DNA from: Eubacteriales bacterium
GTDB lineage: Bacteria; Bacillota; Clostridia; Christensenellales; Aristaeellaceae
DNA: 64,000 nt
Assembly (NCBI GenBank): GCA_028693055.1
Contig: JAQUWD010000014.1
Location: forward strand, 1-64,000
Direction: 5' to 3'
Under the pieces are notes generated by a model. That model worked only from the letters and a program-made list of their open reading frames with translations, ran no database searches and had not been told where the DNA came from. Position numbers and translations under genes: made by a program. Below, one piece after another: positions 442-30,646 of this stretch (positions are counted from its first letter, which is position 1; each line of letters opens with the position of its first letter).

Positions 442-599
442 GGGTGGTTTGGAGGGTTCCAAAGAACCATCCAAAGTCAATTCGTATCGACTGGCTTTGC
501 CGGTCGGGCGGGCGGTTTTCGGCTCTGCCGAAAACACAACTCGTGCTTTGGCGAAAATGGATGCAATCCATTTTTAACACTCGTTCATGGCGCAATCCC
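442..599 (+). repeat. Four-hairpin dispersed element, copy 1
   Basis: First of two tandem copies with a 158-base period between tuf and rpmG. Reading 5' to 3' it has hairpin 1 (TTTGGA-GGGTTC with GAAC-TCCAAA), the constant segment ATTCGTATCGAC, hairpin 2 (GACTGGC/GCCGGTC), a GGGCGGGC linker, hairpin 3 (GTTTTCGGC/GCCGAAAAC) and hairpin 4 (AAAATGGAT/ATCCATTTT) followed by ACAC. Order and linkers match the copies near 16.5, 19.3 and 30.5 kb although most arm sequences differ. It does not code for anything I can recognise. Confidence 0.8.
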
Positions 600-742
600 G
601 GGTGGTTTGGAGGGTTCCAAAGAACTCTCCAAAGTCAATTCGTATCGACCGACTTTGTCGGTCGGGCGGGCAGTTTTTGGCTCAGCCGAAAACACAACCC
701 GTTCTCTGGCGAAAATGGACGCAGTCCATTTTTGACACTCAT
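600..742 (+). repeat. Four-hairpin dispersed element, copy 2
   Basis: Second tandem copy. Hairpin 1 has the same upper stem as copy 1; hairpin 2 changes to GACCGAC/GTCGGTC, with both sides altered together. Hairpin 3 is GTTTTTGGC/GCCGAAAAC, and hairpin 4 is AAAATGGAC/GTCCATTTT, again a paired change relative to copy 1. It ends in TTTTTGACAC just before the AGGAGGT ribosome binding site of rpmG, so a folded RNA here would lie immediately upstream of that start. Confidence 0.8.
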
Positions 743-757
743 TAGGAGGTGGCTGAC

Positions 758-919
758 GTGGCAAGCGTTGCCCGTACCAAGGTGATGCTAGCTTGCACCG
801 AGTGCAAGCAGCGAAACTATAATTCCATGAAGAATAAAAAGAACACCCCCGACCGTATCGAACTTAGCAAATACTGCCGCTTTTGCAAGAAGCATACGGT
901 TCACCGCGAAACCAAGTAA
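758..919 (+). CDS. rpmG: 50S ribosomal protein L33
   Basis: A 53-residue protein starting with GTG, preceded by AGGAGGT at 744-750. It carries the L33 pattern of two Cys pairs for zinc (CTEC near residue 13 and CRFC near residue 40) and the basic end HTVHRETK. L33 is a small protein of the large ribosomal subunit near the E site. The C+ (zinc-binding) form is the one seen here; many Firmicutes hold a second copy without cysteines, which is not in this window. It lies 61 bases before secE, probably in one transcription unit with secE and nusG. Confidence 0.93.
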
Positions 920-980
920 GCGTGAAGCCGATCATAGCGGCGACGATTCGCCGCTATGGCGGCGGAAGGATGTGTAAACC

Positions 981-1253
981 ATGACGGAAAAGAAGGCAGT
1001 GGCCAAATCAAAAAAGCCGAATTTCTTCGTCCGCTTCGGACGTGGATTTGTACGGTTCTTTGCAAAGATTGGCAATGCGTTCAAGAACATGTGGCACGAG
1101 CTTAAAAAGGTCACATGGCCTACACGCGACAAGCTGGTGAATTACACGGTGATCGTTGTTGTGTTTATGCTGTTTATGATGGTGGTTATTGGACTGTTGG
1201 ATACTGGCGCGAGCCAGCTTGTCAATCTGATCATGACCAACTTCAGCGCATAA
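981..1253 (+). CDS. secE: Preprotein translocase subunit SecE
   Basis: A 90-residue protein with a basic N-terminal half (residues 1-50) containing the amphipathic helix FKNMWHELKKVTWPTRDKL, followed by one membrane segment near residues 55-80. W-P-T/S-R ahead of a single transmembrane helix is typical of bacterial SecE. SecE clamps the SecY channel in the plasma membrane. It lies between rpmG and nusG, the standard order. SD-like GGAAGGA lies at 963-969. Confidence 0.95.
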   Translation: MTEKKAVAKSKKPNFFVRFGRGFVRFFAKIGNAFKNMWHELKKVTWPTRDKLVNYTVIVVVFMLFMMVVIGLLDTGASQLVNLIMTNFSA

Positions 1254-1263
1254 GGAGAACACC

Positions 1264-1800
1264 ATGGCCGAAAACAGCAAAGAGCCTTGCTGGTATGTAG
1301 TGCATACCTATTCCGGCTACGAAAACAAGGTTAAGGATAATATCGAGAAATCCGTCGAAAACAACGGCATGAAGGATTTGATTTTGGACGTTCGCGTCCC
1401 TGTTGAGGACGTAGTCGAGATCAAAGGCAACCGTCGTGTAAAGTCTCAGCGCAAGGTTTATCCCGGTTATGTGCTGGTGCATATGATCGAGACCAGCGAA
1501 AGCTGGTATCTTGTCAGAAACACCCGCGGCGTTACGGGCTTTGTCGGCCCGGATTCCAAGCCGGTACCCCTCACCCCGGAAGAGGTGGACGTGATGCTTT
1601 CTACGCAGCAAAACAGCGTCGAGTTCGGCATCGCGATTGGCGAAGAGGTTCGCATACTCTCGGGCCCCTTGGAAAACTTCACCGGGACTGTGGAGGATGT
1701 GGATACCGTACGTCAAAAGCTGACGGTAAAGGTCAAGATGTTCCTTGGCCGGGAAATGCCTGTGGAAGTGGACCTACAGGACGTAGAAAAGGTTCAGTAA
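1264..1800 (+). CDS. nusG: Transcription termination/antitermination protein NusG
   Basis: A 178-residue protein of normal length. The NGN domain (about 1-115) shows WYVVHTYSGYENKV at 10-23, KVYPGYVLV at 64-72 and NTRGVTGFVG at 86-95. The KOW domain (about 126-160) shows GEEVRILSGPLENFTG. NusG binds the RNA polymerase clamp and modulates pausing and termination. It starts 10 bases after secE with AAGGAGA as SD and is followed by an 87-base leader before rplK. Confidence 0.97.
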   Translation: MAENSKEPCWYVVHTYSGYENKVKDNIEKSVENNGMKDLILDVRVPVEDVVEIKGNRRVKSQRKVYPGYVLVHMIETSESWYLVRNTRGVTGFVGPDSKPVPLTPEEVDVMLSTQQNSVEFGIAIGEEVRILSGPLENFTGTVEDVDTVRQKLTVKVKMFLGREMPVEVDLQDVEKVQ

Positions 1801-1815
1801 TCACGATGCAGGCAC

Positions 1816-1836
1816 GCGCTTTCTAAAGGAAAGCGC
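1816..1836 (+). promoter_or_regulatory. Hairpin in the rplK leader
   Basis: A perfect 8-bp stem (GCGCTTTC/GAAAGCGC) with a 5-base loop in the nusG-rplK spacer. It lacks a T-tract and lies one base before the putative L1 site, so it may be part of the regulatory leader or an RNA processing signal. Confidence 0.4.
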
Positions 1837-1837
1837 A

Positions 1838-1870
1838 GTGGGAGGAACAGTACTGTTCCGCCAAAACCAC
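1838..1870 (+). promoter_or_regulatory. Putative ribosomal protein L1 binding site (23S mimic) before rplK
   Basis: The segment starts GTGGGAGGAAC and ends GTTCCGCC-AAAACCAC. The outer stem GTGG/CCAC and inner stem GGAAC/GTTCC leave the internal GAG and CGCCAAAA asymmetry. This is the design of the L1 target in 23S rRNA helices 76-77 (GGUGGGAGGCU paired with GGAGCCGACC...ACCACC, recalled from E. coli). L1 is known to repress its own rplKA message through such a mimic. The site ends 17 bases before the rplK start, next to the SD AAGGAGG at 1873-1879. Confidence 0.75.
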
Positions 1871-1887
1871 ATAAGGAGGAGAATCCA

Positions 1888-2313
1888 ATGGCAAAAAAGG
1901 TTAAATCCATGATTAAGCTTCAGGTTACCGCCGCAAAAGCAACTCCCGCACCGCCTATCGGCCCTGCGCTGGGTCAACACGGCGTTAATATTCCCGGTTT
2001 CTGCAAGGAGTTTAACGAGCGCACCGCGAAGGAAGCGGGGATGATCATCCCTGTAGTCATCACTGTGTACACTGATAACACCTTCACCTTCATCACCAAG
2101 ACGCCTCCCGTTCCCGTCTTGATCAAAAAAGAGCTGAACCTGAAATCCGCCAGCGGCCGTCCCAACAAGGACAAGGTCGGTATGCTGACCAAGGAGCAGG
2201 TACAGAAGATCGCTGAGATCAAGAAGCCCGATACCAACGCCACCGACGTTGAGTCTATCATGAGCATGGTAAAGGGAACCGCCCGTTCTATGGGCATCAC
2301 GGTTGAGGAATGA
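1888..2313 (+). CDS. rplK: 50S ribosomal protein L11
   Basis: A 141-residue protein of normal length. The N-terminal domain has the proline-rich [15 protein letters not shown] at 20-34, which contacts elongation factors and thiopeptides. The C-terminal RNA-binding domain (about 75-141) ends [14 protein letters not shown]11 binds the GTPase-associated region of 23S rRNA. It is followed by rplA after 54 bases; both are probably repressed by L1 through the leader sites described here. Confidence 0.97.
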
Positions 2314-2323
2314 TTTGATTGAT

Positions 2324-2354
2324 TGTGGGAGGACATTGCGCCGTTAGCACCACA
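2324..2354 (+). promoter_or_regulatory. Second, weaker L1-like site directly before rplA
   Basis: The segment TGTGGGAGG...CACCACA forms an outer stem TGTGG/CCACA around GAGG and CGCC-like internal bases. It repeats the GTGGGAGG...CCAC signature of the rplK leader within the short rplK-rplA spacer. It ends just before the SD AGGAAGGA of rplA. The inner stem is much weaker than in the first site, so function is less certain. Confidence 0.5.
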
Positions 2355-2367
2355 GGAAGGACGTAAC

Positions 2368-3057
2368 ATGAAACACGGAAAGAAATATGTTGACAGCGTA
2401 AAGCTGATCGATTCCCTGAACGCTTACGATCCCGCCGAGGCTTGCGATTTGGTCTGCAAGACCAGCAAAGCCAAGTTTGACGAGACCATCGAGCTCTCCA
2501 TTCGTTTGGGCGTTGACCCCCGTCATGCCGATCAACAGGTTCGTGGCGCGGTGGTTCTGCCTCATGGCACCGGCCGCACCATTCGGGTGCTGGTTATCAC
2601 CAAGGGCGACAAGGTGAAGGAAGCGGAAGCTGCCGGAGCTGATTTCGTCGGTGGTGAGGAAATGATCCAGAAGATCCAGACCGAAAACTGGTTTGGTTTC
2701 GACGTGATGATCGCCACCCCTGATATGATGGGCGTGGTTGGCCGTATGGGCCGTGTATTGGGCCCCAAGGGCTTGATGCCTAACCCCAAGAGCGGCACCG
2801 TAACCATGGATGTGGCCAAGGCCGTCACCGAAGTGAAGGCTGGTAAGGTCGAGTATCGCGTTGACAAGAGCGCTATCATTCACTGCCCCGTCGGCAAGGC
2901 CTCCTTCGGCGCTGAGAAGCTGGGTGAGAACCTGAAAACGCTGATGGATGCTGTCAACAAGGCTAAGCCTTCTGCCGCAAAGGGCACCTATGTGCGCAGC
3001 CTGTACATCAGCTCCACCATGGGCCCCGCCGTGAAGGTAAACCCCTTGAAGTTCTAA
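2368..3057 (+). CDS. rplA: 50S ribosomal protein L1
   Basis: A 229-residue protein, the normal length. The start [11 protein letters not shown] is chosen because AGGAAGGA lies 8 bases upstream; the reading frame stays open further 5' into the spacer. Conserved family segments include [10 protein letters not shown] (basic RNA-binding face), [19 protein letters not shown] in the second domain, and [10 protein letters not shown] near the end. L1 forms the mobile stalk at the ribosomal E site and is the translational repressor of its operon. Unlike the common rplKAJL order, rplA is followed by a terminator and rplJL is found about 14 kb away on the other strand. Confidence 0.96.
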
Positions 3058-3068
3058 TGAACCGATAC

Positions 3069-3098
3069 AAAAAAGCGCCGCAGCTGCGGCGCTTTTTT
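3069..3098. terminator. Bidirectional intrinsic terminator between rplA and the ccdA-like gene
   Basis: A perfect GCGCCGCAG/CTGCGGCGC stem flanked by an A-run on the left and a T-run on the right, so it can end transcription from both directions. It closes the rplKA unit and the minus-strand thiol redox operon. Confidence 0.9.
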
Positions 3099-3118
3099 GA
3101 TGGAAAAATTGAATAGCC

Positions 3119-3817
3119 TTAGAGACTGGTTATGATCATGTAAAGACCATAGAGAATCATCAGTCCGCCGCCAAGTCGGCGGATCAGCATTTGGTGGGCA
3201 CGCAACCATTGCAGCGCACCCTTGAGCCACTGATACAGCAGCATAACAGCCAGCATGGGCAGGCACAGTCCTAAAGCGAAAACGGCTAACGACGCAATCC
3301 CTGTCCACATGGTAGCGCCATCAGCGGAAGCGGCTAGAATCAACGCATTTGCCAGTACCGGGGTCAGGCAGGAGGTAAAGGAGAGCGCCATGACCAGCCC
3401 AAACAGAAACGAACCCCAGAAGCCATTCATTTGGCAGTTGATCTTCGATAAGAAGGATGAGCCATGGCTTGTACTGATGTGGAAAACATCAAACAGCCAC
3501 AAGCCAAAGAGAATCATCAAGGAACCGCTAAGAATATTCATTGCGGCGCGGTTCATGTTTTTCAGCGCACTGCCCAGCAAACCTGCGCCAGCACCTATGA
3601 TGGTATACAGCAGTACAAAGCCTAGCAGCAAACCTGCGCACCGTAGAAAAACGGCGAAGGGAGAAGCCTTTTTCGTATCCTCTGTACCGCTCATCAGATA
3701 AACGGTATAGACGGGCAGCATGGGAAGCACGCACGGGGATACAAAGGCTAGTAGACCGGCGCCCAGCATGGCCCATAGAGAGACGGCTTGAGGGGCGGCT
3801 GTAAATAACGGCGTCAT
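3119..3817 (-). CDS. ccdA: CcdA/DsbD-type cytochrome c biogenesis transmembrane protein
   Basis: A 232-residue membrane protein with about six hydrophobic segments. It carries the two family signatures: FVSPCVLPMLPVY (about residues 25-37) and SFTSCLTPVLANAL (about 146-159). Their cysteines form the redox pair that moves electrons from cytoplasmic thioredoxin across the membrane. It overlaps the start of the upstream TlpA-like gene by ATGA (3814-3817), so the two are translationally coupled and almost certainly partners. The pair likely keeps extracytoplasmic thiols reduced; a specific cytochrome c role cannot be read from the sequence. Confidence 0.88.
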   Translation of the reverse strand: MTPLFTAAPQAVSLWAMLGAGLLAFVSPCVLPMLPVYTVYLMSGTEDTKKASPFAVFLRCAGLLLGFVLLYTIIGAGAGLLGSALKNMNRAAMNILSGSLMILFGLWLFDVFHISTSHGSSFLSKINCQMNGFWGSFLFGLVMALSFTSCLTPVLANALILAASADGATMWTGIASLAVFALGLCLPMLAVMLLYQWLKGALQWLRAHQMLIRRLGGGLMILYGLYMIITSL

Positions 3818-4344
3818 TTGGCAACGGCTCCATCGGTAGATTTCTTCGATACATCTACGCTCTCAACTGCTTGCGCCATGCTGTCATAGTCCAGCATGCC
3901 GTTCGCGCCGGTGGCGATATTGCCTTCCTTGTCAAAGAAGAGACTGAGCGGGTAGCCTTGTATGCCAGCCATGCTGCTGAGCAATTGATCCTTATCTTCA
4001 AAGAAGGTCATTTCTTCAAGGCCATATTTCTTGCGGATGCTTTCGGTATTGCTGGCGTCCTCACCGTCCCAGACGTGGACGAGGATGATTTGCAGGTCGT
4101 TCTCACTGTAGGCTTCATAAATTTTTTTAATGTCGGGAAGCTCCTGCATGCAGTAGGGGCACCACTCTGTAAAGAAGTTCATAAAGATGGCTTTTCCTGC
4201 GTAGGGGGTTAAATCCAGCGTAGTGTTTTCGGTGATGATTTCAAAGGCGGTTTTTTCAGGCTCCGTTTCCGCTACCGAGAAAGCGGGCGTTAGGAGTAGT
4301 AGCGCGGCGCAGAGCAAGGAGAAGAGCCGGTTTGTCTTTTTCAT
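3814..4344 (-). CDS. TlpA/ResA-like exported thioredoxin-fold thiol reductase
   Basis: A 176-residue protein with a signal peptide (MKKTNRLFSLLCAALLLLTP, cleavage likely near AFSVAE). A thioredoxin/AhpC-type domain follows, with TEWCPYC near residue 60 as the redox active site and YPLSLFFDKEG containing the cis-proline region (about 137-147). It is the likely extracytoplasmic partner of the CcdA-like protein encoded next, taking electrons from it to reduce disulfides or haem-binding sites. No cysteine lipobox is seen, so it may be soluble or stay tethered by the signal segment. Confidence 0.87.
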   Translation of the reverse strand: MKKTNRLFSLLCAALLLLTPAFSVAETEPEKTAFEIITENTTLDLTPYAGKAIFMNFFTEWCPYCMQELPDIKKIYEAYSENDLQIILVHVWDGEDASNTESIRKKYGLEEMTFFEDKDQLLSSMAGIQGYPLSLFFDKEGNIATGANGMLDYDSMAQAVESVDVSKKSTDGAVAK

Positions 4345-4684
4345 AGTATTTCCTCCAAATCTTGATGTGGGACGCGTTTAACTTGCTCCCAGCATTATCT
4401 TACCATAAAAAGAACGGATGCGAAACAGTTTTATTGTAAACAAATTGGTAACAATAAAAATATTGCTATTATAGTGAAAATGCAAAATCATAACATCAAA
4501 AATGCAATTCTGATAAAATGATGGGTTCGAAAGGCAACTTTGCACTTTACGTGGAAACTGTAATATGATATAATATTCCACGTTCTCTTATGAGGAAAAC
4601 GGAAAGGGCGCTTTCCTTAAAAAATGAAGGATTGGAATAAGAAACCTTCAAATTGCATCTTGATCACACAGGGAGGAAACCGTC
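4345..4684. other. AT-rich divergent intergenic region with an aminotransferase promoter
   Basis: No gene is seen in these 340 bases, which are clearly more AT-rich than the flanks. A plus-strand promoter candidate is TTGCAC (4540-4545), an 18-base spacer, and TATGAT (4564-4569), with a TATAAT overlapping it at 4569-4574. Downstream the leader holds a small hairpin at 4601-4616 (GGAAAG/CTTTCC). I recognise no riboswitch class. The promoter of the minus-strand redox pair must also lie here but is not obvious. Confidence 0.55.
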
Positions 4685-5884
4685 ATGTCTTTAACCATTT
4701 CCGCTAAATGCAGTGCAATCGCCCCTTCCGCCACTTTGGCGATGGATACCAAGGCCAAGGAACTGAAAGCCGCAGGAGAAAACGTGATCAGTTTCGCGGC
4801 AGGCGAACCGGATTTTGACACTCCGGTGCATATCCGCAACGCTATGAAGGACTCCATGGACATGGGCATGACGCGCTACACTCCCGTTCCCGGTACGATG
4901 GAGCTTCGGGATGCAATTATCGCGCGGATTCAGGCAGATCGAGGCCTTACCTATACGCGGGGTGAAATCATTGTGTCAAACGGCGCGAAGCATACGCTGT
5001 ATACAGCCTTCCAGACCTTGTTGGATCCGGGCGACGAGGTGCTGATTCCTACCCCTTGCTGGGTAAGCTACCCGGAAATGGTGCGTATGGCGGGCGGTGT
5101 TCCCGTTTATATTGAGGGAAAAGAAGAAAATGGCTTTGTTCCCTCAGCGGAAGAGCTTGCCGCTAAGATCACCTCCAAGACCAAGGTGTTCATGCTCACC
5201 AGCCCTAGCAACCCTAACGGCTGCGTGTGGAGCCGAGAAATGCTGCAAGCGGTTGCTGATCTTGCGGTGAAGCACGATTTTTATATCATTGCAGATGAAA
5301 TCTACTCCAAGCTGGTTTATGGGGATAAGGAGCATATCAGCATCGCCTGTCTGGGCGATCAGGTAAAGGAACGGACAATTTTGGTGGACGGCGTTAGCAA
5401 AGCCTATGCCATGACCGGCTTCCGCATCGGCTATGCGGCGGGCCCACAGAATGTGATTAAGGCGATGAGTAACTATCAAAGCCAGGCGACCTCCGCGCCT
5501 AACAGCGCGGCTCAGCATGCCGCCGCCGTTGCGCTCACCGGAGATCAACACTGCGTAGAAACCATGCGCGTCGCCTTTGAAGAACGTCGCAACCGACTTG
5601 TGGAGCTGATCAATCAAATAGAGGGGCTTAGCTGTGTGAAGCCAGATGGAGCCTTCTACGTCATGATGAACGTGAAGGCGCTGATTGGCAAAAGCTATCA
5701 CGGAACCGTCTTGAAGGACAGCGCCGCCTTTGCGGAAACCTTGCTGATGAACCTGCATACGGTGGTTGTTCCCGGCGCTTCCTTTATGGCGGAAGGATAC
5801 TGCCGCTTGTCCTACGCAACCTCCATGGAAAATATTGTGGAGGGCATGAAACGCATTGCCGCTTTTGTAAAGGAGCTGAAATAG
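4685..5884 (+). CDS. aspB: Pyridoxal-phosphate aminotransferase, class I (aspartate aminotransferase type)
   Basis: A 399-residue fold-type I aminotransferase. Visible features are FAAGEPDFDTP (38-48), SPSNPNGC (173-180), the cofactor Asp in IIADEIY (Asp204), the Schiff-base lysine in DGVSKAYAMTG (Lys239), and RLSYA near the end with the substrate-carboxylate Arg. The subgroup resembles bacterial Ib aspartate aminotransferases, which interconvert aspartate/2-oxoglutarate and oxaloacetate/glutamate. Only one base separates it from the citrate-synthase-like gene, suggesting joint control of oxaloacetate and glutamate supply. Substrate preference cannot be proved from sequence. SD is GGGAGGAAA. 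Confidence 0.88.
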   Translation: MSLTISAKCSAIAPSATLAMDTKAKELKAAGENVISFAAGEPDFDTPVHIRNAMKDSMDMGMTRYTPVPGTMELRDAIIARIQADRGLTYTRGEIIVSNGAKHTLYTAFQTLLDPGDEVLIPTPCWVSYPEMVRMAGGVPVYIEGKEENGFVPSAEELAAKITSKTKVFMLTSPSNPNGCVWSREMLQAVADLAVKHDFYIIADEIYSKLVYGDKEHISIACLGDQVKERTILVDGVSKAYAMTGFRIGYAAGPQNVIKAMSNYQSQATSAPNSAAQHAAAVALTGDQHCVETMRVAFEERRNRLVELINQIEGLSCVKPDGAFYVMMNVKALIGKSYHGTVLKDSAAFAETLLMNLHTVVVPGASFMAEGYCRLSYATSMENIVEGMKRIAAFVKELK

Positions 5885-5885
5885 C

Positions 5886-7280
5886 ATGTTGGAATTTAGT
5901 TCAAAGACCAATCAGCTGATGCAGTCCAAATATCAATATCAATTGCAGGATGTGGAGGAACCCAACCTCTATCGGGAGATTTTCGACTACGAATCCATCC
6001 CGAAGATCGCTTTTAACAACCGTGTGGTTCCTGCAAATATGCCTTCCGAAATCTGGATGACGGATACCACCTTTCGAGACGGTCAGCAGAGCGTCAGCCC
6101 CTTTACGCCGGTGCAAATCGAGCGTTTGTTTCAGCTGGAATCCAGACTGGGCGGGCCTAAGGGATTGATTCGGCAAAGCGAATTCTTCCTTTATACGCCG
6201 AAGGATCGGGAGGCCTTGGAGCGCTGCCAAGCGCTAGGGCTTCGCTTTCCTGAAATTACAACGTGGATTCGGGCAAACGAAAAGGATTTTGAGCTGGTGA
6301 AGGCTGCAGGGGTAAAAGAGACGGGAATTCTCGTTTCCTGTAGCGACTATCATATCTTCAAGAAAATGCATTTGTCCCGCGGGCAGGCTATGGAAAAGTA
6401 TCTGTCCATTGTGAAGGCGGCGCTTGACCGAGGCATTGTTCCCCGCTGCCATTTTGAGGATATTACCCGTGCAGATTTCTACGGCTTTGTGCTTCCCTTT
6501 GCGGAGCAGCTGATGAAGCTGTCTATGGAGAGCGGCATTCCCATCAAGGTTCGGGCCTGTGATACCATGGGCTATGGGGTTAGCTATCCGGGCGCGGCGC
6601 TCCCGCGGAGCGTGCCCGGCATCATCTATGGCTTGAATCACTATGCTCAGATTCCCTCCGAGCAGCTAGAATGGCATGGGCATAACGATTTCTACAAGGT
6701 GGTTAGCAATGCGGGTACGGCGTGGCTCTATGGCTGCTCCAGTATCAATTGCTCCTTGCTGGGGATTGGCGAGCGCACGGGGAACTGCCCGCTGGAAGCC
6801 ATGGCTATCGAATACGAAGCTTTGCGCGGCACTACGGATGGGATGGACTTAACCGCCGTATCTGAGATTGCCGAGTTTATGGAGCGGGAGATCGGCATCG
6901 AAATCAGCCCGCGTCAGCCCTTTGTAGGCCGTCATTTCAATGTGACCCGGGCTGGAATCCATGCGGACGGCATGCTCAAGGACGAGGAAATCTATAATAT
7001 ATTCGATACCAGCGCTATTCTCAACCGTCCCGCCTCGGTAGCGGTTGACAGTCACAGCGGCTTGGCTGGCATCGCGCATTGGATGAACAGCTACTTCCGT
7101 TTGAAGGATAAGCATGTGGTGGATAAGCAGGATCCTATTGTGATATCTGTAAAGAACATGGTGGATGAGCTTTTCGCTCAGGGCCGTAATACGGTGATGG
7201 GCGATGAGGAAATGGAAATCATGGTCCGTGAATCCGATGCAGAGCGCTATGAGCGCTTACTGTTCCACAAGAGTCATTAA
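5886..7280 (+). CDS. Re-citrate synthase-like enzyme (HMGL/homocitrate synthase superfamily)
   Basis: A 464-residue TIM-barrel enzyme of the isopropylmalate/homocitrate synthase superfamily. It shows TDTTFRDGQQS (59-69, metal-binding Asp60 and catalytic Arg), the metal ligands HGHND (264-268), and GIGERTGNCPLEA (293-305). The approximately 45-residue N-terminal extension and the overall length fit the Re-face citrate synthases of anaerobes such as Clostridium kluyveri rather than LeuA, which carries a C-terminal regulatory domain. Such enzymes condense acetyl-CoA with oxaloacetate to citrate, the first step towards 2-oxoglutarate and glutamate. Pairing with an aspartate aminotransferase supports this. 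No aconitase or isocitrate dehydrogenase is in the window; homocitrate synthase remains an alternative. Confidence 0.7.
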   Translation: MLEFSSKTNQLMQSKYQYQLQDVEEPNLYREIFDYESIPKIAFNNRVVPANMPSEIWMTDTTFRDGQQSVSPFTPVQIERLFQLESRLGGPKGLIRQSEFFLYTPKDREALERCQALGLRFPEITTWIRANEKDFELVKAAGVKETGILVSCSDYHIFKKMHLSRGQAMEKYLSIVKAALDRGIVPRCHFEDITRADFYGFVLPFAEQLMKLSMESGIPIKVRACDTMGYGVSYPGAALPRSVPGIIYGLNHYAQIPSEQLEWHGHNDFYKVVSNAGTAWLYGCSSINCSLLGIGERTGNCPLEAMAIEYEALRGTTDGMDLTAVSEIAEFMEREIGIEISPRQPFVGRHFNVTRAGIHADGMLKDEEIYNIFDTSAILNRPASVAVDSHSGLAGIAHWMNSYFRLKDKHVVDKQDPIVISVKNMVDELFAQGRNTVMGDEEMEIMVRESDAERYERLLFHKSH

Positions 7281-7431
7281 GCTTTACAAACATGTCGTTT
7301 GTTTGAAACCCTCATCGATTTTTATGAAAATGCGGACTCCTTCCAAGCAGGATCGAGCCCACTTTTTTCTATTTTTACATTCTTTCCCGCCGCTAAGAAC
7401 GCTGGTTTTACAGGCGGATGATTCCAAATGC

Positions 7432-7460
7432 TTGAAAGCCTATTGTATTTGCGATATACT
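7432..7460 (+). promoter_or_regulatory. Promoter before fhs
   Basis: TTGAAA (7432-7437) and TATACT (7455-7460) with a 17-base spacer, 42 bases before the fhs start; the SD GGGAGG follows. The rest of the 221-base spacer shows no gene. Confidence 0.7.
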
Positions 7461-7501
7461 GTTGCCATTGCAACGGAAAGAAAGAAAGGGAGGAACAGGA
7501 C

Positions 7502-9172: not shown

Positions 9173-9184
9173 GGAGGAAAAAAG

Positions 9185-10857: not shown

Positions 10858-10874
10858 TCAACGGAGGAGAACGA

Positions 10875-16322: not shown

Positions 16323-16368
16323 GCAAAAGAAAATGAGCTGCAACGCCTGTTCCATAGCTTTATTAGAT

Positions 16369-16404
16369 AAAAAAACGGAGCCGTCTAGCAATAGACGGCT
16401 CCGA
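16369..16404 (-). terminator. rplJL terminator, distal copy with T-tract
   Basis: On the minus strand the GGAGCCGTCTA/TAGACGGCTCC hairpin is followed by a run of seven T. An identical hairpin without a T-tract lies closer to rplL at 16575-16604. This distal copy therefore looks like the original terminator, with the repeat element inserted in front of it. Confidence 0.8.
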
Positions 16405-16406
16405 TG
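16376..16406. repeat. 31-bp direct repeat, left of element copy 3
   Basis: An exact 31-base match to 16575-16605. It spans the whole rplJL terminator hairpin plus flanking bases. The two copies bracket a 168-base element, as a duplicated insertion target would. Confidence 0.85.
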
Positions 16407-16574
16407 CAGACTGTCGAAAAACTCCCTTGTGAGGGTGTCGGGGGAGCCCGCAGGCTACCCTGACTATATTCGTATCGACCGGCTTTGCCGGGCGGGCGGG
16501 CAGTTTGCGGCAAAGCCGCAAACATTACCCGTAGCTGGCGAAAAAACGCGTAGCGCTTTTTTGACACGCTGAAT
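16407..16574 (+). repeat. Four-hairpin dispersed element, copy 3, between direct repeats
   Basis: Same order as the copies after tuf: hairpin 1 (GTCGGGGGAGCC/GGCTACCCTGAC), ATTCGTATCGAC, hairpin 2 (CCGGC/GCCGG), GGGCGGGC, hairpin 3 (GTTTGCGGC/GCCGCAAAC), hairpin 4 (AAAAAACGC with GCG and six T) and TTGACAC. The outer ends are imperfect inverted repeats: CAGACTGTCGAAAAA on the left against CAGCGTGTCAAAAAA read from the right. There is no coding capacity. It is antisense to the flanking genes. Confidence 0.85.
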
Positions 16575-16605
16575 CGGAGCCGTCTAGCAATAGACGGCTC
16601 CGATG
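16575..16605. repeat. 31-bp direct repeat, right of element copy 3
   Basis: An exact copy of 16376-16406, 16 bases beyond the rplL stop codon on the minus strand. It contains the hairpin but lacks the T-tract that makes the other copy a terminator. Confidence 0.85.
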
Positions 16606-16621
16606 ATATGGAACGAAAAGC

Positions 16622-17569: not shown

Positions 17570-17607
17570 GTAAGTTGCACCTCCTTTTTGAAAATCTGGT
17601 CGATTCC

Positions 17608-17745
17608 AAAAAGAAAACCCTTGCTGGCGCAAGGGCGAACATGTCGCATGGGGATTACTCCCGCCTTACACCTCGGCGGGAAAGCTTTCGCTCATTAAAG
17701 GAACCGTAAGGCTCCGACCCGCTGTCTTCGGCATAGGTTTCCAAA
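17608..17745 (-). ncRNA. L10 leader with intrinsic attenuator
   Basis: The minus strand between the promoter and rplJ has the L10-leader hallmarks. CCGAAGACAGCGGG (17719-17731 region) and CCCGCCGAGGTG (17669-17680 region) pair across a hairpin-bearing insert, forming the kink-turn-type L10(L12)4 site. Downstream, the stem CCCTTGC/GCAAGGG (17618-17635) is followed by TTTTCTTTTT, an intrinsic terminator just before rplJ. Excess L10-L12 would favour termination. Class assignment is from memory of the family. Confidence 0.85.
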
Positions 17746-17757
17746 GAATCAGTTATT

Positions 17758-19242: not shown

Positions 19243-19402
19243 CCGGGCGTCAAAAAAGCGCTATGCGCTCTTTTGACAGTTGCGGGTAATCCTTGCGGCA
19301 GAGCTGCAAACTGCCCGCTCGCCCGGCAAAGCCGGCCGATATGGAATACAGTCAGGGTAGCCTGCGGGCTCCCCCGACGCCCCTTTAAGAGACTCCTGCA
19401 GG
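19243..19402 (-). repeat. Four-hairpin dispersed element, copy 4 (diverged)
   Basis: Read on the minus strand: hairpin 1 as in copies 3 and 5 (GTCGGGGGAGCC/GGCTACCCTGAC), a changed constant segment (ATTCCATATCGG), hairpin 2 (CCGGC/GCCGG), a decayed hairpin 3, and hairpin 4 with AGCGC/GCGCT and T-run, ending TTTTTTGACG. No flanking duplication is visible, suggesting an older insertion. A terminator hairpin abuts its downstream end, again placing the element at a terminator. Confidence 0.8.
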
Positions 19403-19409
19403 CCGCCGT

Positions 19410-19643: not shown

Positions 19644-19681
19644 GATGTGATTCCCCTTTCAAAATGGAAAATGCAGGTGTT

Positions 19682-19710: not shown

Positions 19711-19730
19711 GGCGAAAAATATAAAATACC

Positions 19731-21253: not shown

Positions 21254-21262
21254 GCTCTATTC

Positions 21263-25035: not shown

Positions 25036-26323
25036 GATCGTCCTCCTTCATGCGTACCTGCACGGCGTTGGCATGGGCGTGCAGCCCTTCCTTTTCCGCA
25101 AAGCGCATCACGTCGTCCGCGACCGCGTGAAGGGCCTCCTTGGTATAGTAAAGATAGCTGGAGCGCTTGCAAAAATCGTCCACGCCCAGCGGGGAGGAAT
25201 ACCGCGCCGTGCCGCCGGTGGGCAAGGTGTGATTTGGCCCCGCCAGATAATCGCCCAAGGATTCGGGACAGTTACGCCCCATAAAGATGCTGCCTGCGTT
25301 ACGGATGAAAGGCAGAAGTCCAAAGGGGTCGTCCACGCTTAGCTCCAAATGCTCCGGGGCCATTTCGTTGGCTACCTGAGCGGCTTTGCGCAAATCGTCC
25401 ACCACGATGATTCGTCCGTTGTCGTCAATAGACGCTCTCGCGATTTCCTGCCGGGGCAGAAGGGGAATCTGCCGTTCCAGCTCGTCCCGCACCTTGAGGG
25501 CAAAGGCTTCGTCGTCCGTGGCTAACCATGCCGAGGAAAGCTTATCGTGCTCCGCTTGGCTCAATAGGTCGGCGGCGATGTGAACAGGGTTGCTTTTGCC
25601 GTCGGCAATGACCATGATTTCGCTGGGACCGGCGATCATATCGATGGCGCAAAGCCCTAAGCCGAAGCAAAGCTGCTTGGCCGTCGCCACATAAATATTG
25701 CCGGGGCCTACGATTTTGTCTACCTTAGGCACGCTTTCGGTGCCATAGGCTAAGGCTGCCACGGCCTGTGCGCCGCCCAGCTTCACGATGGTTTTGACTC
25801 CGGCTAGCTTGGCGGCTGCCAGAATCACAGGGGGTACGTTGCCGTTTTGATCCGGCGGCGTGGTCATGACGATGTTTTCTACTCCCGCAATCTGGGCGGG
25901 AATCGCGTCCATCAGCACGGAGCTGGGATATCGCGCTGTGCCGCCGGGTACGTATAGGCCTACGCTTTGAAGGGGCAGCACCCGCTGACCTAGCACCGCG
26001 CCGCCGGGCATGGTATCCACAAAGCCGGAGCGCTTCTGCTGGCTGTGAAAGCGCCGAATATTGGCAGCGGCTAGCTCCATGGTTCTAAGCAGCGCTGGCT
26101 CTACGCTTTGGGATGCAGCTTCCACCTCTTCCTGCGTTACCAGCAAGGAGCGGGGACGAGAGCCGTCAAATTTTTCACAGTAGTCCAGCACCGCCGCGTC
26201 GCCTCGGCTTTTTACGTTTGCAAGAATGTCCGTAACAACGGCTGTAACGTCCTTTTTCTGCTCCTCGGCGCGGTTTAAAATATCGTCCGCCTTTTGCCCC
26301 GTATAGCGTATGGTCTGGATCAT
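25028..26323 (-). CDS. hisD: Histidinol dehydrogenase
   Basis: A 431-residue protein: LYVPGGTARYPSSVLM (about 128-143), VDKIVGPGNIYVATAK, IDMIAGPSEIMVIAD, the zinc ligands in LSQAEHDKLSSAWL, MAPEHLELSV, and GPNHTLPTGGTARYSSPLGVDDF. It oxidises histidinol to histidine in two NAD-dependent steps. There is a 3-base gap to hisG. Confidence 0.97.
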   Translation of the reverse strand: MIQTIRYTGQKADDILNRAEEQKKDVTAVVTDILANVKSRGDAAVLDYCEKFDGSRPRSLLVTQEEVEAASQSVEPALLRTMELAAANIRRFHSQQKRSGFVDTMPGGAVLGQRVLPLQSVGLYVPGGTARYPSSVLMDAIPAQIAGVENIVMTTPPDQNGNVPPVILAAAKLAGVKTIVKLGGAQAVAALAYGTESVPKVDKIVGPGNIYVATAKQLCFGLGLCAIDMIAGPSEIMVIADGKSNPVHIAADLLSQAEHDKLSSAWLATDDEAFALKVRDELERQIPLLPRQEIARASIDDNGRIIVVDDLRKAAQVANEMAPEHLELSVDDPFGLLPFIRNAGSIFMGRNCPESLGDYLAGPNHTLPTGGTARYSSPLGVDDFCKRSSYLYYTKEALHAVADDVMRFAEKEGLHAHANAVQVRMKEDDHE

Positions 26324-26326
26324 GGC

Positions 26327-26950
26327 TTATCCCTCCACTTTGCTTTTCAGCTTTTCCACAATATCCCGTATCTGTGCGTCCTTGAATTTCATAGCGGCCT
26401 TATTGGCAATCAAGCGGGCGCTGATGGGCAGAATTTCACGGGTGACCTCCAAATGATTCTGCTTTAAGGTAGTCCCCGTTTCCACAATGTCCACGATCAC
26501 GTCGGAGAGCTTCAGCAGGGGCGCGAGCTCGATGGAGCCGTTGAGCTTGATAATTTCAATCTCCCGGCTAAGCTCGCCGTAAAACCGCTTGGCGATGTTG
26601 GGGTATTTGGTAGCCACCCGCAACGGGCGTTGAGCGTCCTCCCGAAAGCCTACCGGAGCCGCTTCCGCCATACGGCATTTGCCTAGGTTTAAATCCAGCA
26701 GCTCATAGACGTCGTTGCCGCCCTCCAAGAGCACGTCCTTGCCCACTACGCCGATATCCGCCGCGCCGTGCTCCACATAAATTGCCACGTCGGAGGGCTT
26801 CACCAGCAGATAGCTTACCTCCCCGCCGGGATCGCAAAGCACCAGCCGTCGATCGTCGCTCTCCATAGCGGAGCAATCGTAACCAATATCCTTAAACAAC
26901 CGATAGACCTTATCGCCTAGCCGCCCCTTGGGCAGCGCAATATTAAGCAT
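26327..26950 (-). CDS. hisG: ATP phosphoribosyltransferase, short form (HisGS)
   Basis: A 207-residue protein: MLNIALPKGRLGDKVY (1-16), VKPSDVAIYVEHGAADIGVVGKD (about 61-83), VATKYPNIAKRFY, and the PRPP-binding loop VDIVETGTTLKQNHL (about 153-167). The short form lacks the C-terminal regulatory domain and needs HisZ, which is encoded immediately upstream with an 8-base overlap. It commits ATP and PRPP to histidine. Confidence 0.97.
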   Translation of the reverse strand: MLNIALPKGRLGDKVYRLFKDIGYDCSAMESDDRRLVLCDPGGEVSYLLVKPSDVAIYVEHGAADIGVVGKDVLLEGGNDVYELLDLNLGKCRMAEAAPVGFREDAQRPLRVATKYPNIAKRFYGELSREIEIIKLNGSIELAPLLKLSDVIVDIVETGTTLKQNHLEVTREILPISARLIANKAAMKFKDAQIRDIVEKLKSKVEG

Positions 26951-28055
26951 TTTTACTTACCTCCTGAAAGCCGTCGTCGCTAAAGCGCAGGGTTTGTTTC
27001 ACACGCGCGTTGGGGCTTTGGGATGGGGAGGCCAGCACCCGCAAACCGCTTCTTCGAAGGTCTTCCACCCCTTTAAGCACCTTAGCTGGGTCATCCTGAG
27101 CACCGTACAGAGCCAGCACGTCCGCGTCGTATGCTCCGGGCTTGATGATGACGCGGGTCAGCTCGTCCAGATATAGGGCGAAGCCCAAGCCGTCGCCCGC
27201 CTTGCCCAGCTTGCGCATCAAGCGGTCGTACTGACCGCCGCTTAATACCGCCCGGGGCGCGCCCTCCACATAGCCTTTAAAAACCAGCCCGTTGTAGTAA
27301 TCCAGATCGTTGGCGATGGAAAAATCAAGCCGTATATGCTTTTCAAGCCCCAGTGTGCAAAGCGATCCATAGACCCGGGAAAGCTCGCTGACCGCCTTTT
27401 TCATCTCCGGGCCTACAGCCAGCTCCGCGGCTCGTACCAGCGTGGTTTCTACCTCGCCGCATAAGTCGGGCAGCTGGGCGATGCGCTCGCCGTATAGCGG
27501 AGCGATCTGCCATTTTGTCAACGCAGATTTCAGCTCGTGGCTGTTCTTTTGGCGGATGAGGGCGAAGGCCTCCTCCCGCTGAGGAACCGTCATGCCCGCG
27601 TCCTCCATCAAACCGCCTGCCAAGCCCATGTGGCTCATGTCCAGCACATAGGGCAGGCCGATGCGCTCCAAGCTTTCAATGGCTAGCCGCACCACCTCGC
27701 ACGCGCCGTAGGAATCGATTTCCCCCAGCGATTCCACACCGATCTGGGAAATCTCCGTAAATTGATGATCCGTGGGAGATACCCGATAGACGCTCTCGTG
27801 ATAATAGAGCTTTTCCACCCCTTGCCGTTCCGGCTTGGCGTGCTTTACGATGGAAAGGGTTACGTCGGGCTTTAAGGCCATCAGCTTGCCGCTGACGTCG
27901 GTAAAGCTCAACACCCGCTCGCTGGTTAAAAAGCTTTTATTCTCAAGATATAGCTGATATTCCTCAAACCGCCGCATGGGGAAACGGGTATACCCGTACC
28001 CCTCGTATAATTCTCGTAAGGTCAGCACCAATTGTTCTAGTGGGTTTAGTACCAT
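26943..28055 (-). CDS. hisZ: ATP phosphoribosyltransferase regulatory subunit
   Basis: A 370-residue HisRS-like paralogue. It keeps class II synthetase-type segments (GYGYTRFPMRRFEEYQLY, FTDVSGKLMALKPDVTLSIVK, YHESVYRVSP and LDYYNGLVFKGYVEGAPRAVLSGGQYDRL) but has no anticodon-binding domain. It pairs with short HisG and gives it histidine feedback control. It is the first gene of the his operon. Confidence 0.94.
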   Translation of the reverse strand: MVLNPLEQLVLTLRELYEGYGYTRFPMRRFEEYQLYLENKSFLTSERVLSFTDVSGKLMALKPDVTLSIVKHAKPERQGVEKLYYHESVYRVSPTDHQFTEISQIGVESLGEIDSYGACEVVRLAIESLERIGLPYVLDMSHMGLAGGLMEDAGMTVPQREEAFALIRQKNSHELKSALTKWQIAPLYGERIAQLPDLCGEVETTLVRAAELAVGPEMKKAVSELSRVYGSLCTLGLEKHIRLDFSIANDLDYYNGLVFKGYVEGAPRAVLSGGQYDRLMRKLGKAGDGLGFALYLDELTRVIIKPGAYDADVLALYGAQDDPAKVLKGVEDLRRSGLRVLASPSQSPNARVKQTLRFSDDGFQEVSKNA

Positions 28056-28129
28056 GGGTTCTCCTCCTTGCTGTGGATAACGCTGGAATAGTATACCATA
28101 ATCGATTCCGCTGCGCTACCATGGGGGAG

Positions 28130-28158
28130 AGTATAGCACGCTTCACCGATTTAGTCAA
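28130..28158 (-). promoter_or_regulatory. his operon promoter
   Basis: On the minus strand, TTGACT (28153-28158), a 17-base spacer and TATACT (28130-28135). The leader to hisZ is only about 70 bases with an SD AAGGAGGA; I see no T-box and no His-rich leader peptide. It is divergent from the promoter at 28180. Confidence 0.8.
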
Positions 28159-28179
28159 GTAAATTGATGAAGCGAATTC

Positions 28180-28208
28180 TTGACTTTCTATGGCTGCTTT
28201 TCTATAAT
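28180..28208 (+). promoter_or_regulatory. Promoter of the polytopic membrane protein gene
   Basis: TTGACT (28180-28185), a 17-base spacer and TATAAT (28203-28208). Its position excludes translation starts upstream of about 28215 for the next gene. Confidence 0.85.
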
Positions 28209-28245
28209 AAGAAGCGTTTACTGTCTAATACAGGAGGAAGAATTC

Positions 28246-29970
28246 TTGCAAAAGCACGCCGCAAGGGCTGCCCGCCCATGGCTATTGGGCTTTCTGCTGA
28301 CCGCCGCGCTTTGGACTTTTTTGGCGTTGTATGCGGACGTTCATTTTGCCACCAATGACGATCAATTTATCCTGCGCACATTCATGGGCTTTGAACCGGG
28401 GGGCGCGCCTCATTTTCACCTGTATATCCACGGCATGTACGCCTATCCCCTGCAATGGCTGAACAGTCTGGCTCCCGGGATCGCGTGGTTTTCTTTGCTG
28501 GAAATCGCACTGCTGACCCTTGCCGCTGTGACCATTGCCAAAAGCATAATGCAATGCTTTGAACGCGGAGGTCATCCCCTATGGATGGGCGCGTTATTTG
28601 CCTTGTTGTTTCTACTGGTTTTTAGCATGAGCTATATGGCTCGGATTACCTATACTACCACCGCCGCTTTATTGGGCGCGGCGGCGGTAGCGCAAATGCT
28701 GAGCGTGGACTGCGCCCGGCAGAGCAGCGCTTCGGTTTTTCGCTCCATGAGCTACGCGCTCCTGCTGGTGGTGCTGTGCTACGGTCTGCGCCAAATGACC
28801 GCGCTGCCGGTGCTGGCCTATTGCGGCGTGGCGTTCTGCTTGCAGTTTATGGGGCATTACAGGCTGGGCAAAGCAAAGCTCCGCAGCGCTAAGCCTATGG
28901 TTGCGGTTTTGATCTTGGTGGCGGTGGTGATGGGCGGGCTGGCTGTGGGCCGAGAGGTGGAAATCACCCAAGCGGGGCAGCGGGAGTACCTTTCGTGGCA
29001 GCAAGCCCGTATCAGTGTGCTGGATTATATCGATCTGGAAAAGCTGCCGCCGGAGGCGCTGGAGGCAGCAGGCTGGACGGATGCCCAGAACGAGCTGCTT
29101 TTGCAGTGGAATACCATGGACGAGGCTATATCCACCAAAGCCTTTGAAACCCTTCGCAATCATTGGTATCGTTCGGATACGCGTCCTACGCCGGGCTCGG
29201 CGTTAGAGGATTTCCGGTGGCGATCGCCCTTGGTGCTGGGCTCCTTGCTTCTGTTGGCGGGGATGCTGATCCTCTGCTTTTTTCTGCGGCTGAGACAAAA
29301 ACAGCCCCTTTGGCCTTGTCTGGCTTTGAGCTGCGCGGGGGGCTTCTGCTTGTGCTTTTTTATCTATTTGACGCTTCTGGGCCGCTTACCCTACCGGGCT
29401 GTGATGGTGCCCGCGTTGCCCTGCGCCGTCTTTGCTTTTTGCTTGTTAGCGGAGGGGCTGCCCGGAGGAGCGAAGAACGGGGGCAAAAAGCGCTCCGCTT
29501 GGGTGATTTGCGCGCTTTGCTCCTGCCTGAGCCTATGCTATGCCATCCCAGCTGCGCAGGCGGTGGAGCGCGTGCCGCCTCAATGGGAATATAACACCTT
29601 TGAGGATATGGATCAGCAGGCGCTGGCACATCCAGAGCTGCTGCTGATTTACTCCACGGAGCTGGTGAACGACATGCGCATGTTCCCCGATACCTCTGGC
29701 GGCATTCCCACCAATCTGATGTTCTGGGGCGGTTGGCAGCGCGGCTCACCGGAATATCTGGCGCGGGTAAGCGCCTTCGGCCTTGACGCGGATCATTTTA
29801 CCGCTGAGGACTGGCTGAGGCCGGAGCTGCGCTTTATCTCCTTAGAGGACACACCCAACGAAGCGCTGTTGCGCTATTTACGGGAGGAAATCGATCCTGC
29901 TGTTCAGTACCGGCAGGAAAAGGTGTCGGACGGTCTCTATTTCTACCAATTTTATCTACCGTCAATGTGA
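28246..29970 (+). CDS. Polytopic membrane protein, possibly GT-C-like
   Basis: A 574-residue protein with a TTG start at 28246, chosen because AGGAGG precedes it by 8 bases; the longer frame overlaps the promoter. It has about ten hydrophobic segments through roughly residue 440, followed by an extracytoplasmic C-terminal tail of about 130 residues. The first external loop carries an acidic TNDDQ near residue 40, the kind of position used by GT-C glycosyltransferases. Otherwise I recognise no family. It is monocistronic or leads into mscL. Confidence 0.7.
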   Translation: MQKHAARAARPWLLGFLLTAALWTFLALYADVHFATNDDQFILRTFMGFEPGGAPHFHLYIHGMYAYPLQWLNSLAPGIAWFSLLEIALLTLAAVTIAKSIMQCFERGGHPLWMGALFALLFLLVFSMSYMARITYTTTAALLGAAAVAQMLSVDCARQSSASVFRSMSYALLLVVLCYGLRQMTALPVLAYCGVAFCLQFMGHYRLGKAKLRSAKPMVAVLILVAVVMGGLAVGREVEITQAGQREYLSWQQARISVLDYIDLEKLPPEALEAAGWTDAQNELLLQWNTMDEAISTKAFETLRNHWYRSDTRPTPGSALEDFRWRSPLVLGSLLLLAGMLILCFFLRLRQKQPLWPCLALSCAGGFCLCFFIYLTLLGRLPYRAVMVPALPCAVFAFCLLAEGLPGGAKNGGKKRSAWVICALCSCLSLCYAIPAAQAVERVPPQWEYNTFEDMDQQALAHPELLLIYSTELVNDMRMFPDTSGGIPTNLMFWGGWQRGSPEYLARVSAFGLDADHFTAEDWLRPELRFISLEDTPNEALLRYLREEIDPAVQYRQEKVSDGLYFYQFYLPSM

Positions 29971-30008
29971 TGAACGCTACCAGAACAGCAAGGAGGATAT
30001 ATCATACA

Positions 30009-30461
30009 ATGAAGAAATTATTTTCGGAGTTCAAAAAGTTCTGCTCCAAGGGGAACATCCTAGAATTAGCAACCGGCGTAATGATCGGCGGTGCGTTCAG
30101 TACTATTGTCAGCTCGCTGGTGAACGACATGCTCATGCCCGTCATCGGATTGCTGACTGGCGGCATCAATCTAGGCGGGCTATTCTTTGCATTGGATTTT
30201 CAGACTTATCCCTCCATGGAAGCCGCAAAGGCAGCGGGCATAGGCACCATCAATTACGGAACCTTTTTGCAAAACGTTATCAATTTTCTCATCATTGCCT
30301 TTTGCGTGTTCATGCTCGTAAAAGGTATGAATCGGCTAATGGGCTCTAAAGTGGAAGAAGCGCTCAAGGAGCCGGAGCGTCATTGCCCCTACTGCATGGG
30401 CGTGGTGGACAAAGCAGCCTTACGCTGTCCTCATTGCACCAGCGACATCGAGGGAAAATAA
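30009..30461 (+). CDS. mscL: Large-conductance mechanosensitive channel with C-terminal zinc ribbon
   Basis: A 150-residue protein. The MscL core has the N-terminal amphipathic FSEFKKFCSKGNILELATGVMIGGAF, the first membrane helix and VSSLVNDMLMPVIGLLTGG, with the second helix at about 85-105. The tail ends HCPYCMGVVDKAALRCPHCTSDI, two CPxC pairs forming a predicted zinc ribbon. The channel releases solutes on osmotic downshock. The start MKKLFSEF follows AAGGAGGA. Such tails occur in some Clostridia MscL proteins. Confidence 0.95.
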   Translation: MKKLFSEFKKFCSKGNILELATGVMIGGAFSTIVSSLVNDMLMPVIGLLTGGINLGGLFFALDFQTYPSMEAAKAAGIGTINYGTFLQNVINFLIIAFCVFMLVKGMNRLMGSKVEEALKEPERHCPYCMGVVDKAALRCPHCTSDIEGK

Positions 30462-30462
30462 A

Positions 30463-30482
30463 ACAAGGGCTACGCCCTTGAC
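30463..30482. repeat. 20-bp direct repeat, left of element copy 5
   Basis: A hairpin sequence (CAAGGGC-TAC-GCCCTTG plus flanks) identical over 20 bases to 30647-30666, starting two bases after the mscL stop codon. Confidence 0.85.
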
Positions 30483-30646
30483 AGCGTGTCAAAAAAGCGC
30501 TACGCGTTTTTTCGCCAGTTACGGGTACTGTTTGCGGCTTTGCCGCAAACTGCCCGCCCGACCGGCAAAGCCGGTCGATACGAAAATAGTCAGGGTAGCC
30601 TGCAGGCTCCCCCGACACCCACTTAAGGGAGTTTTTCGACAGCCTG
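30483..30646 (-). repeat. Four-hairpin dispersed element, copy 5, between direct repeats
   Basis: Read on the minus strand: ends CAGGCTGTCGAAAAA and (from the other side) CAGCGTGTCAAAAAA; hairpin 1 (GTCGGGGGAGCC/GGCTACCCTGAC), hairpin 2 perfect (GACCGGC/GCCGGTC), GGGCGGGC, hairpin 3 (GTTTGCGGC/GCCGCAAAC), hairpin 4 and TTTTTTGACACG. It is the closest relative of copy 3 and is likewise bracketed by a duplicated hairpin. It has no coding content. Confidence 0.85.

Follow-up and report, generated by a model that had tools for sequence, protein, structure and literature searches.

Five copies of an intergenic repeat occur in a 64,000-nucleotide stretch of DNA (the window) from an Eubacteriales bacterium of the Aristaeellaceae; this stretch is part of contig 10 (JAQUWD010000014.1) of a draft genome of 3.83 Mb in 116 contigs (GCA_028693055.1). 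Two copies lie in tandem in the spacer between tuf and rpmG and one lies just downstream of rplL, all three on the plus strand, and the other two are on the minus strand (Table 1). The copies had been reported in a first-pass annotation of the window, and all five are present within a few bases of where it placed them, with their parts in the order that it described (hairpin 1, ATTCGTATCG, hairpin 2, GGGCGGGC, hairpin 3, hairpin 4 and GACAC). Its limits are close as well, with the correction that only the rplL copy and the copy at 30482-30646 are intact; the other three (the copy at 19243 and the two between tuf and rpmG) are decayed at one or both ends.

Intact copies measure 165 bp. They start with CAGACTGTCGAAAAAC or CAGGCTGTCGAAAAAC and end with TTTTTTGACACGCTG, an imperfect inverted repeat of that start, and these terminal inverted repeats (CAGnnTGTCRAAAA) enclose the hairpin array. 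Outside them, each of the two intact copies is bracketed by a duplicated hairpin, whose two copies are identical at 30482-30646 and match at 33 of 34 positions at rplL. Neither the inverted repeats nor the outer hairpins figured in the first-pass annotation. The two tuf-rpmG copies each lack at least one good end, and both lack a target duplication. The paired changes that the annotation quoted from the hairpin arms are genuine; in hairpin 4, for example, the first tuf copy has ATGGAT/ATCCAT where the second has ATGGAC/GTCCAT, as read directly. The copy at 19243 carries the variant linkers ATTCCATATCG and GGGCGAGC. Hairpin 1 of the tuf copies, which had been called wholly different, by eye resembles a hairpin 1 of the form TTTGGAGG...CCTCCAAA in records of Candidatus Limiplasma pullicola. 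Folding z-scores are -6.0 (DNA) and -5.1 (RNA) for 16407-16571 and -7.4 (RNA) for 600-743; in the RNA fold of 16407-16571, part of hairpin 4 pairs with the left end instead.

Copy number in the host genome

The window holds only a small part of a family of roughly 60 dispersed copies. A BLAST search with 16400-16580 gave at least 43 matches (40 of 85 candidates were scored), and a pattern for the core with at most three mismatches was found in 62 places, some of them counted twice or false (e.g., in L067), compared with two for the reversed control pattern. After eight BLAST pieces had been dropped because they were short, truncated at the end of a contig or the second part of a copy, 57 copies were analysed. 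When they were translated in all six frames, only one frame was open through the element and 150 bp on either side. A crude test with open reading frames found 46 of 51 copies to have one or more gene 3' ends facing the element, where independent orientations would give three quarters. Arms and linkers are nearly uniform among the 39 full copies of this genome. Loci L028 and L029 have much of their left flank in common and both are near contig starts, so they may be part of a larger repeat. Contigs C10 and C93 (genome G000) and several contigs of genome G006 start or stop inside or beside the element, as is expected of a collapsed repeat.

The target hairpin is often duplicated

When the copies are read by their flanks, many have a complete hairpin on both sides, and the sequence of this hairpin differs site by site. 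The left and right flanks match with a score of at least 12 in 34 of the 57 copies, and in 31 of the 57 the match (12-42 bp) is flush with both ends of the element; among 1118 mismatched flank pairs (left of one copy, right of another) none reaches 12, and the maximum is 10. The duplicated unit folds as a single hairpin in 30 of these 31 copies and has a folding z-score below -2 in 28 (median -5.8); the median number of unpaired bases is 1 at one end of it and 0 at the other. The units that fold weakly are those of L041, L053 and L064, and the last two are among the shortest matches. A T-run follows the right copy in 11 of the 31 and an A-run precedes the left copy in 16 (one or both in 20, neither in 11), compared with 3.5% and 4.4%, respectively, at control positions. 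The target hairpins show no sequence consensus. The flush match, the folding and the counts of T- and A-runs thus indicate that the element targets hairpins, often intrinsic terminators, and that what is duplicated is the hairpin itself. At L052 the order is hairpin, element, hairpin, element, and tandem copies such as this look like the result of a second insertion at a duplicated hairpin.

IS1182-family insertion sequences with the same ends

Insertion sequences (ISs) of the IS1182 family that have ends like those of the short element are present in related genomes (L104, L105, L108, L109, L111, L121, L125 and L133). L104 is 1493 bp long, with ends CAGACTGTCAAAGAAGCC and CAGTCTGTCAAAAAAGG, and has a broken frame. 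L108 (1503 bp) has an open transposase frame of 449 amino acids, which scores 409.9 bits against the IS1182 model NF033551 (cut-off 270) and also matches PF13751 and PF05598; the position of the sole TAG counted inside the L108 match identifies it as this frame's stop codon. L108 is bracketed by a 20-bp duplication, AAACTGCCCAAGGGCAGTAA, that is itself a hairpin, and a predicted hairpin adjoins 12 of the 12 IS-type ends that were picked (internal matches in L104 and L120, one in L126 and a second in L133 were left out). Within the genus, 6 of 17 genomes contain PF13751 transposases; within the family, relatives of the protein piece from L104 were found in 25 of 150 genomes. In the host genome there are a contig-edge fragment of 28 residues that shares 75% identity with the L108 transposase, the decayed remains of an IS1182 element (L071), and a second kind of IS1182 element with the end GAGTGTCTCAAAATG (L070, L073 and L074; two of these are cut by contig edges).

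The short element is non-coding, multi-copy and dispersed, has terminal inverted repeats and a target duplication, and has autonomous counterparts with matching ends in related genomes. It is thus a miniature inverted-repeat transposable element (MITE) and, to judge by its ends, probably a derivative of the IS1182 family. The duplication of hairpins and the existence of IS1182 elements with the same ends, one of them (L108) bracketed by a hairpin, make mobilisation by an IS1182-family transposase most likely. The first-pass annotation had included a MITE-like element among its suggestions, and the ends and the target duplication now make that suggestion specific. Two of its other suggestions fared less well: the inverted repeats and the target duplication are of the DDE transposon type, and because of them we have dropped both a retro-type element, for which no support was found (reverse transcriptases were not searched for), and a repetitive extragenic palindromic (REP) element with its REP-associated tyrosine transposase (RAYT), which is not supported either (no RAYT search was made).

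Site history at rplL and tuf-rpmG

The rplL search found 14 relatives of the same genus besides the host genome, and 13 of them were read. The element is absent from all 13 within 230 bases after rplL (150 in L220), and most of them, by eye, have one hairpin and a T-run there; the host genome has hairpin, element, hairpin and T-run. In the tuf-rpmG spacer the core is likewise absent from 11 of 11 relatives with an rpmG match. These relatives are different species and are therefore approximate empty sites only. In one of them (L225, genome G010) a different small repeat, CAGCTCGTCAAAAAAC..., starts right at the foot of another hairpin downstream of rplL; it is probably a further hairpin-targeting MITE.

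Covariation in the hairpin array

An alignment (A1) was made from 46 of 61 non-redundant cluster representatives; 15 were left out by eye (one false match, L067, and others with truncated, gapped or very different-length hairpins), so A1 is selected for alignability. The structure was fixed after A1 itself had been viewed, and the relatives in A1 come from a search whose pattern already prescribes most of hairpin 2 and of the linkers. The 25 named pairs of hairpins 1-3 are paired in 89.3% of cells (77.3 on average in the shuffles), both sides are changed in 127 cells (shuffled 37.6), a double change is seen in 16 pairs (shuffled 10.3) and the covariation score is 0.335 (shuffled 0.122); none of 500 shuffles reaches A1's pairing, double-change or covariation values. 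Slides of the structure by 1-3 columns give a score of at most 0.110 and at most 38 cells with both sides changed, although the slide of +1 also gives 16 double-change pairs. Two cautions apply: relatedness inflates the shuffled control, and a structure derived from the sequences on which it is scored outdoes its slid versions on that account. RNAalifold returned hairpins 2 and 3 from A1 and did not return hairpin 1.

Two flanking pairs of hairpin 2 lie outside the search pattern and are therefore free; 75 of 77 copies have standard pairs there, related copies being counted separately: GC/GC in 39, GA/TC in 29, CG/CG in 3, TC/GA in 1, GT/AC in 1 and, with one wobble each, GG/TC in 2; the non-standard cases are GT/TC and GA/GC (1 each). 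The stem mismatches G-T and A-C are in the proportions 39:23 in hairpin 1, 3:6 in hairpin 2 and 10:8 in hairpin 3, with no consistent asymmetry. Since the 39 full copies of the host genome are nearly uniform, the paired arm changes are mostly between lineages. Rfam has no match at the five window copies and only E 0.4 matches, in the flanking hairpin, at 16360-16620; for six diverse loci the single core match is sub-threshold (L203, E 0.35, 26.6 of 80 bits). Neither of the results that the first-pass annotation named as refuting it, a lack of significant covariation and a match to a described element or Rfam family, has thus occurred. With strong covariation among 46 selected copies and no credible Rfam match, the array seems to be under structural constraint, as RNA or as DNA. 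The covariation that the first-pass annotation had anticipated is thus strong and supports its proposal of selection on a folded strand; the mismatch counts do not settle its choice between RNA and DNA, and template switching (below) is a rival to selection.

Spread across lineages

The pattern CGTATCNNCCGGCTTTGCCGGNNGGGCGGG, run against a collection with one genome for each of 84,980 species, gave 78 stretches, which by their record prefixes come from 26 assemblies; these include Candidatus Limiplasma pullicola, Christensenellaceae bacterium Chersky_266 and other metagenome-assembled genomes of Clostridia. BLAST found the element in 9 of 60 relatives' genomes, the host included. A covariance model of the core, a search foreseen in the first-pass annotation, found it within the GTDB family in 41 of 150 genomes (host included) and 23 of 50 genera, and in 0 of 290 other genomes drawn from the class (1 of 291 being the host), at E <= 1e-4 with stricter filters and at most 26 (family) or 13 (class) candidates scored per genome. 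At E 1e-3 nothing matched in the plasmid and phage collections. Two IMG/VR viral contigs (L277 and L278) contain the core pattern, and two assemblies have a copy immediately upstream of the tmRNA gene (L166 and, by eye, L179).

Duplicated hairpins are found outside the host genome as well: 13 of 40 copies in eight other genomes, taken from the listed best matches, score at least 14, compared with 0 of 194 controls, and the duplication is most frequent in G064 (4 of 5), G072 (4 of 7) and G179 (3 of 7). In the pattern-scan set, which was counted without a control and partly overlaps the 40 copies (L141 and L235 are one site), 15 of 77 copies score at least 14 and 7 of 77 have too little flank to be scored.

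Mechanism and alternative explanations

It is very probable, on the strength of these sequence comparisons, that the repeats are a family of non-autonomous miniature elements of about 165 bp that are mobilised in trans by an IS1182-family DDE transposase, which recognises a hairpin or cruciform and whose action duplicates the whole hairpin. The transposase would bind the CAGnnTGTCRAAAA ends and would recognise as its target a hairpin or cruciform (often an intrinsic terminator) and not a sequence. We infer that the ends of the element would then be joined at both feet of the extruded hairpin, and gap repair would leave one complete hairpin on either side. The terminator would thereby be kept and doubled, and the element would add a terminator-like hairpin 4 of its own. 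The whole hairpin left on each side suggests that landing is harmless, and termination may be kept because the A- and T-tracts of hairpin 4 resemble a two-way terminator. The folded core may help transposition or have a function of its own.

Several observations weigh against this explanation. Flush duplication is absent in 26 of the 57 copies, and although many of these have decayed ends, L020, L027, L032, L036 and others keep good ends without it; such copies would need recombination or decay as an explanation. Duplication is also rare or lacking in some of the other genomes (G166, 1 of 6; G126, 1 of 4; G102, 0 of 7; G143, 0 of 3; G101, 0 of 1). L104, the second IS of which both ends were seen, and a deletion derivative, L120, sit between two unlike hairpins, so hairpin duplication is not universal. 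The helper transposase envisaged by the first-pass annotation is represented by L108 and the other ISs of related genomes, but no intact one was found in the draft host genome, and L070, which has the only long open IS1182 transposase frame there, was rejected as the helper because it has other ends. The ends equal those of the IS1182-family ISs except that, by eye, the G064 copies appear to have other end sequences and yet the same hairpin duplication; the helper may therefore differ between lineages, and the core may have stayed while the ends changed. The support from empty sites is limited to other species, and transposition itself is deduced from the arrangement of the copies.

A quite different outcome, replacement of the target stem-loop as in IS1272, would have both flanking hairpins pre-existing. 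IS1272 and TnSha1, which have a transposase of the same family, do remove the target hairpin (PMC4923244, PMC5678879), and the unlike hairpins around L104 and L120 would fit. But the flanking hairpins have the same sequence in 31 of 57 copies while differing from site to site, which contradicts replacement as the main mode, and most relatives have, by eye, one hairpin just downstream of rplL; we consider it highly improbable. The remaining alternatives concern the array itself. The core (hairpin 1, linker, hairpin 2, linker, hairpin 3) could be a functional structured RNA, such as a 3'-untranslated region element or small RNA, that has turned mobile, a host RNA function being behind the covariation; this is compatible with the transposon explanation and does not exclude it. 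The strong covariation in A1, the likeness of the linkers between changing hairpins over many assemblies, the same core (by eye) with different ends in G064, the recurrence of G-U in hairpin 1 (at one pair in 18 of 46 sequences) and, around hairpin 2, a possible U-G pair (41 of 46) all speak for an RNA, but the stems lack a consistent G-T over A-C asymmetry, the element is not common to relatives at the two sites compared, and no credible Rfam match exists. A structured RNA of this kind is thus a possibility to which we give clearly less than even weight.

Selection may also be unnecessary. Intrastrand template switching is a known mutational process that perfects imperfect palindromes, both arms changing together, and compensatory changes that arose in this way would be unselected. 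The arms are short and close together, and the near uniformity of the 39 full host copies, with arm changes mostly between lineages, would suit such a process; between-lineage changes of this kind fit folding selection on active elements and template-switch correction of palindromes alike. The linkers are alike across lineages too (the search pattern fixed part of them), and the positions and order of the hairpins persist while their arms are replaced, which argue against template switching, and we regard it as a rather unlikely source of the changes.

Relationship to known elements

REP and REPIN sequences are dispersed intergenic hairpins like those described here, but they are not known to make a target duplication, whereas the present element has terminal inverted repeats and long target duplications. 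For the IS1182 family, direct repeats in ISfinder reportedly range from 0 to 60 bp, and some of the long ones may be the same phenomenon. IS1272 and TnSha1 resemble the present system in having an IS1182-family transposase and hairpin targets (many of them terminators) without a sequence consensus (PMC4923244, PMC5678879). IS1272 removes its target hairpins, several of which are confirmed terminators, wholly or partly and without a target duplication (PMC4923244, PMC5678879), and so differs from the present family, in which the complete hairpin is duplicated. The discussion in PMC5678879 argues that the whole stem-loop would be duplicated if joining took place at a cruciform's 5' feet (pathway b), and the present family looks like the outcome of that pathway. 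According to PMC12056078, the targets of IS1182-related transposases are sequences or structures, which may or may not be duplicated or deleted, and one member, ISPse1, is listed with 4-bp repeats (PMC3281130); whole-hairpin duplication is absent from the descriptions of the family in the excerpts of these two papers.

In being short, non-coding, dispersed, intergenic and bounded by inverted repeats, with a foldable transcript, the element is like other bacterial MITEs (PMC10969869). It is unlike QMITE2, which has direct repeats of 7-9 bp (PMC10969869), in that its repeats of 12-42 bp are one hairpin and several covarying hairpins stand in a row. The SPRITE and BOX repeats of Streptococcus pneumoniae are also small, and SPRITE is terminator-like too (PMC10969869); the excerpted text does not mention hairpin duplication for them, and they are set apart by description only. 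Searches of an open-access library, which misses most subscription journals, turned up no account of natural whole-hairpin duplication or of this covarying hairpin array.

Features of the window

Table 1. Element copies in the window, with the parts of the intact copy downstream of rplL and the duplicated hairpins
Feature	Position	Strand	Remarks
Tandem unit 1, tuf-rpmG spacer, decayed left end	428..585	+	direct-repeat listing
Tandem unit 2, tuf-rpmG spacer	586..743	+	87% identical to unit 1
Target hairpin, left copy (terminator downstream of rplL)	16373..16406	+	34-bp direct repeat, 33/34 identical
Intact 165-bp element	16407..16571	+	
Left terminal inverted repeat CAGACTGTCGAAAAA	16407..16421	+	
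Hairpin 1	16437..16464	+	DNA and RNA folds; covariation helix 1
Hairpin 2, flanked by linkers ATTCGTATC and GGGCGGGC	16475..16495	+	RNA fold
Hairpin 3	16503..16523	+	DNA and RNA folds; covariation helix 3
Hairpin 4, A-tract/T-tract, terminator-like, overlaps right end	16539..16563	+	DNA fold
Right terminal inverted repeat (reverse complement CAGCGTGTCAAAAAA)	16557..16571	+	
Target hairpin, right copy	16572..16605	+	direct repeat
Decayed copy without target duplication; hairpin beyond one end	19243..19402	-	
Duplicated hairpin, right end of element	30463..30481	-	
Intact 165-bp element	30482..30646	-	
Duplicated hairpin TCAAGGGCGTAGCCCTTGT, left end of element	30647..30665	-	

Other repeats and RNA features lie elsewhere in the window. 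Three tandem 77-bp units at 48846-49076 each contain a CAAGGGC...GCCCTTG hairpin, and eleven overlapping registers of 15-bp repeats at 58476-58730 lie within an open frame (57897-58931) and encode, by eye, a repeated LADGx-type peptide. An Rfam match to group II intron D1-D4-3 (52.7 bits) at 59092-59221 is upstream of a tRNA-Leu gene (59626-59711), about 28 kb from the nearest copy of the element. On the minus strand at 17602-17749 there is an L10 leader (45.3 bits, just above the Rfam threshold of 44).

Significance

The family provides many natural cases of duplication of a whole target stem-loop, which had earlier been drawn as one branch of the IS1272 model, and it adds a strongly covarying hairpin array that is outside Rfam 15. 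Because each site records the joining points at the feet of its hairpin, structure-guided target choice by a DDE transposase is directly testable here. We would suggest, as a tentative view that the sequences favour less than evenly, a structure-directed DDE mode in which an IS1182-family transposase attacks a cruciform at both feet and so copies a complete terminator, together with a mobile multi-hairpin element whose folded core is selected (possibly as RNA) and was kept while the ends changed across lineages. The duplications suggest a route by which a mobile element may enter terminators without destroying them.

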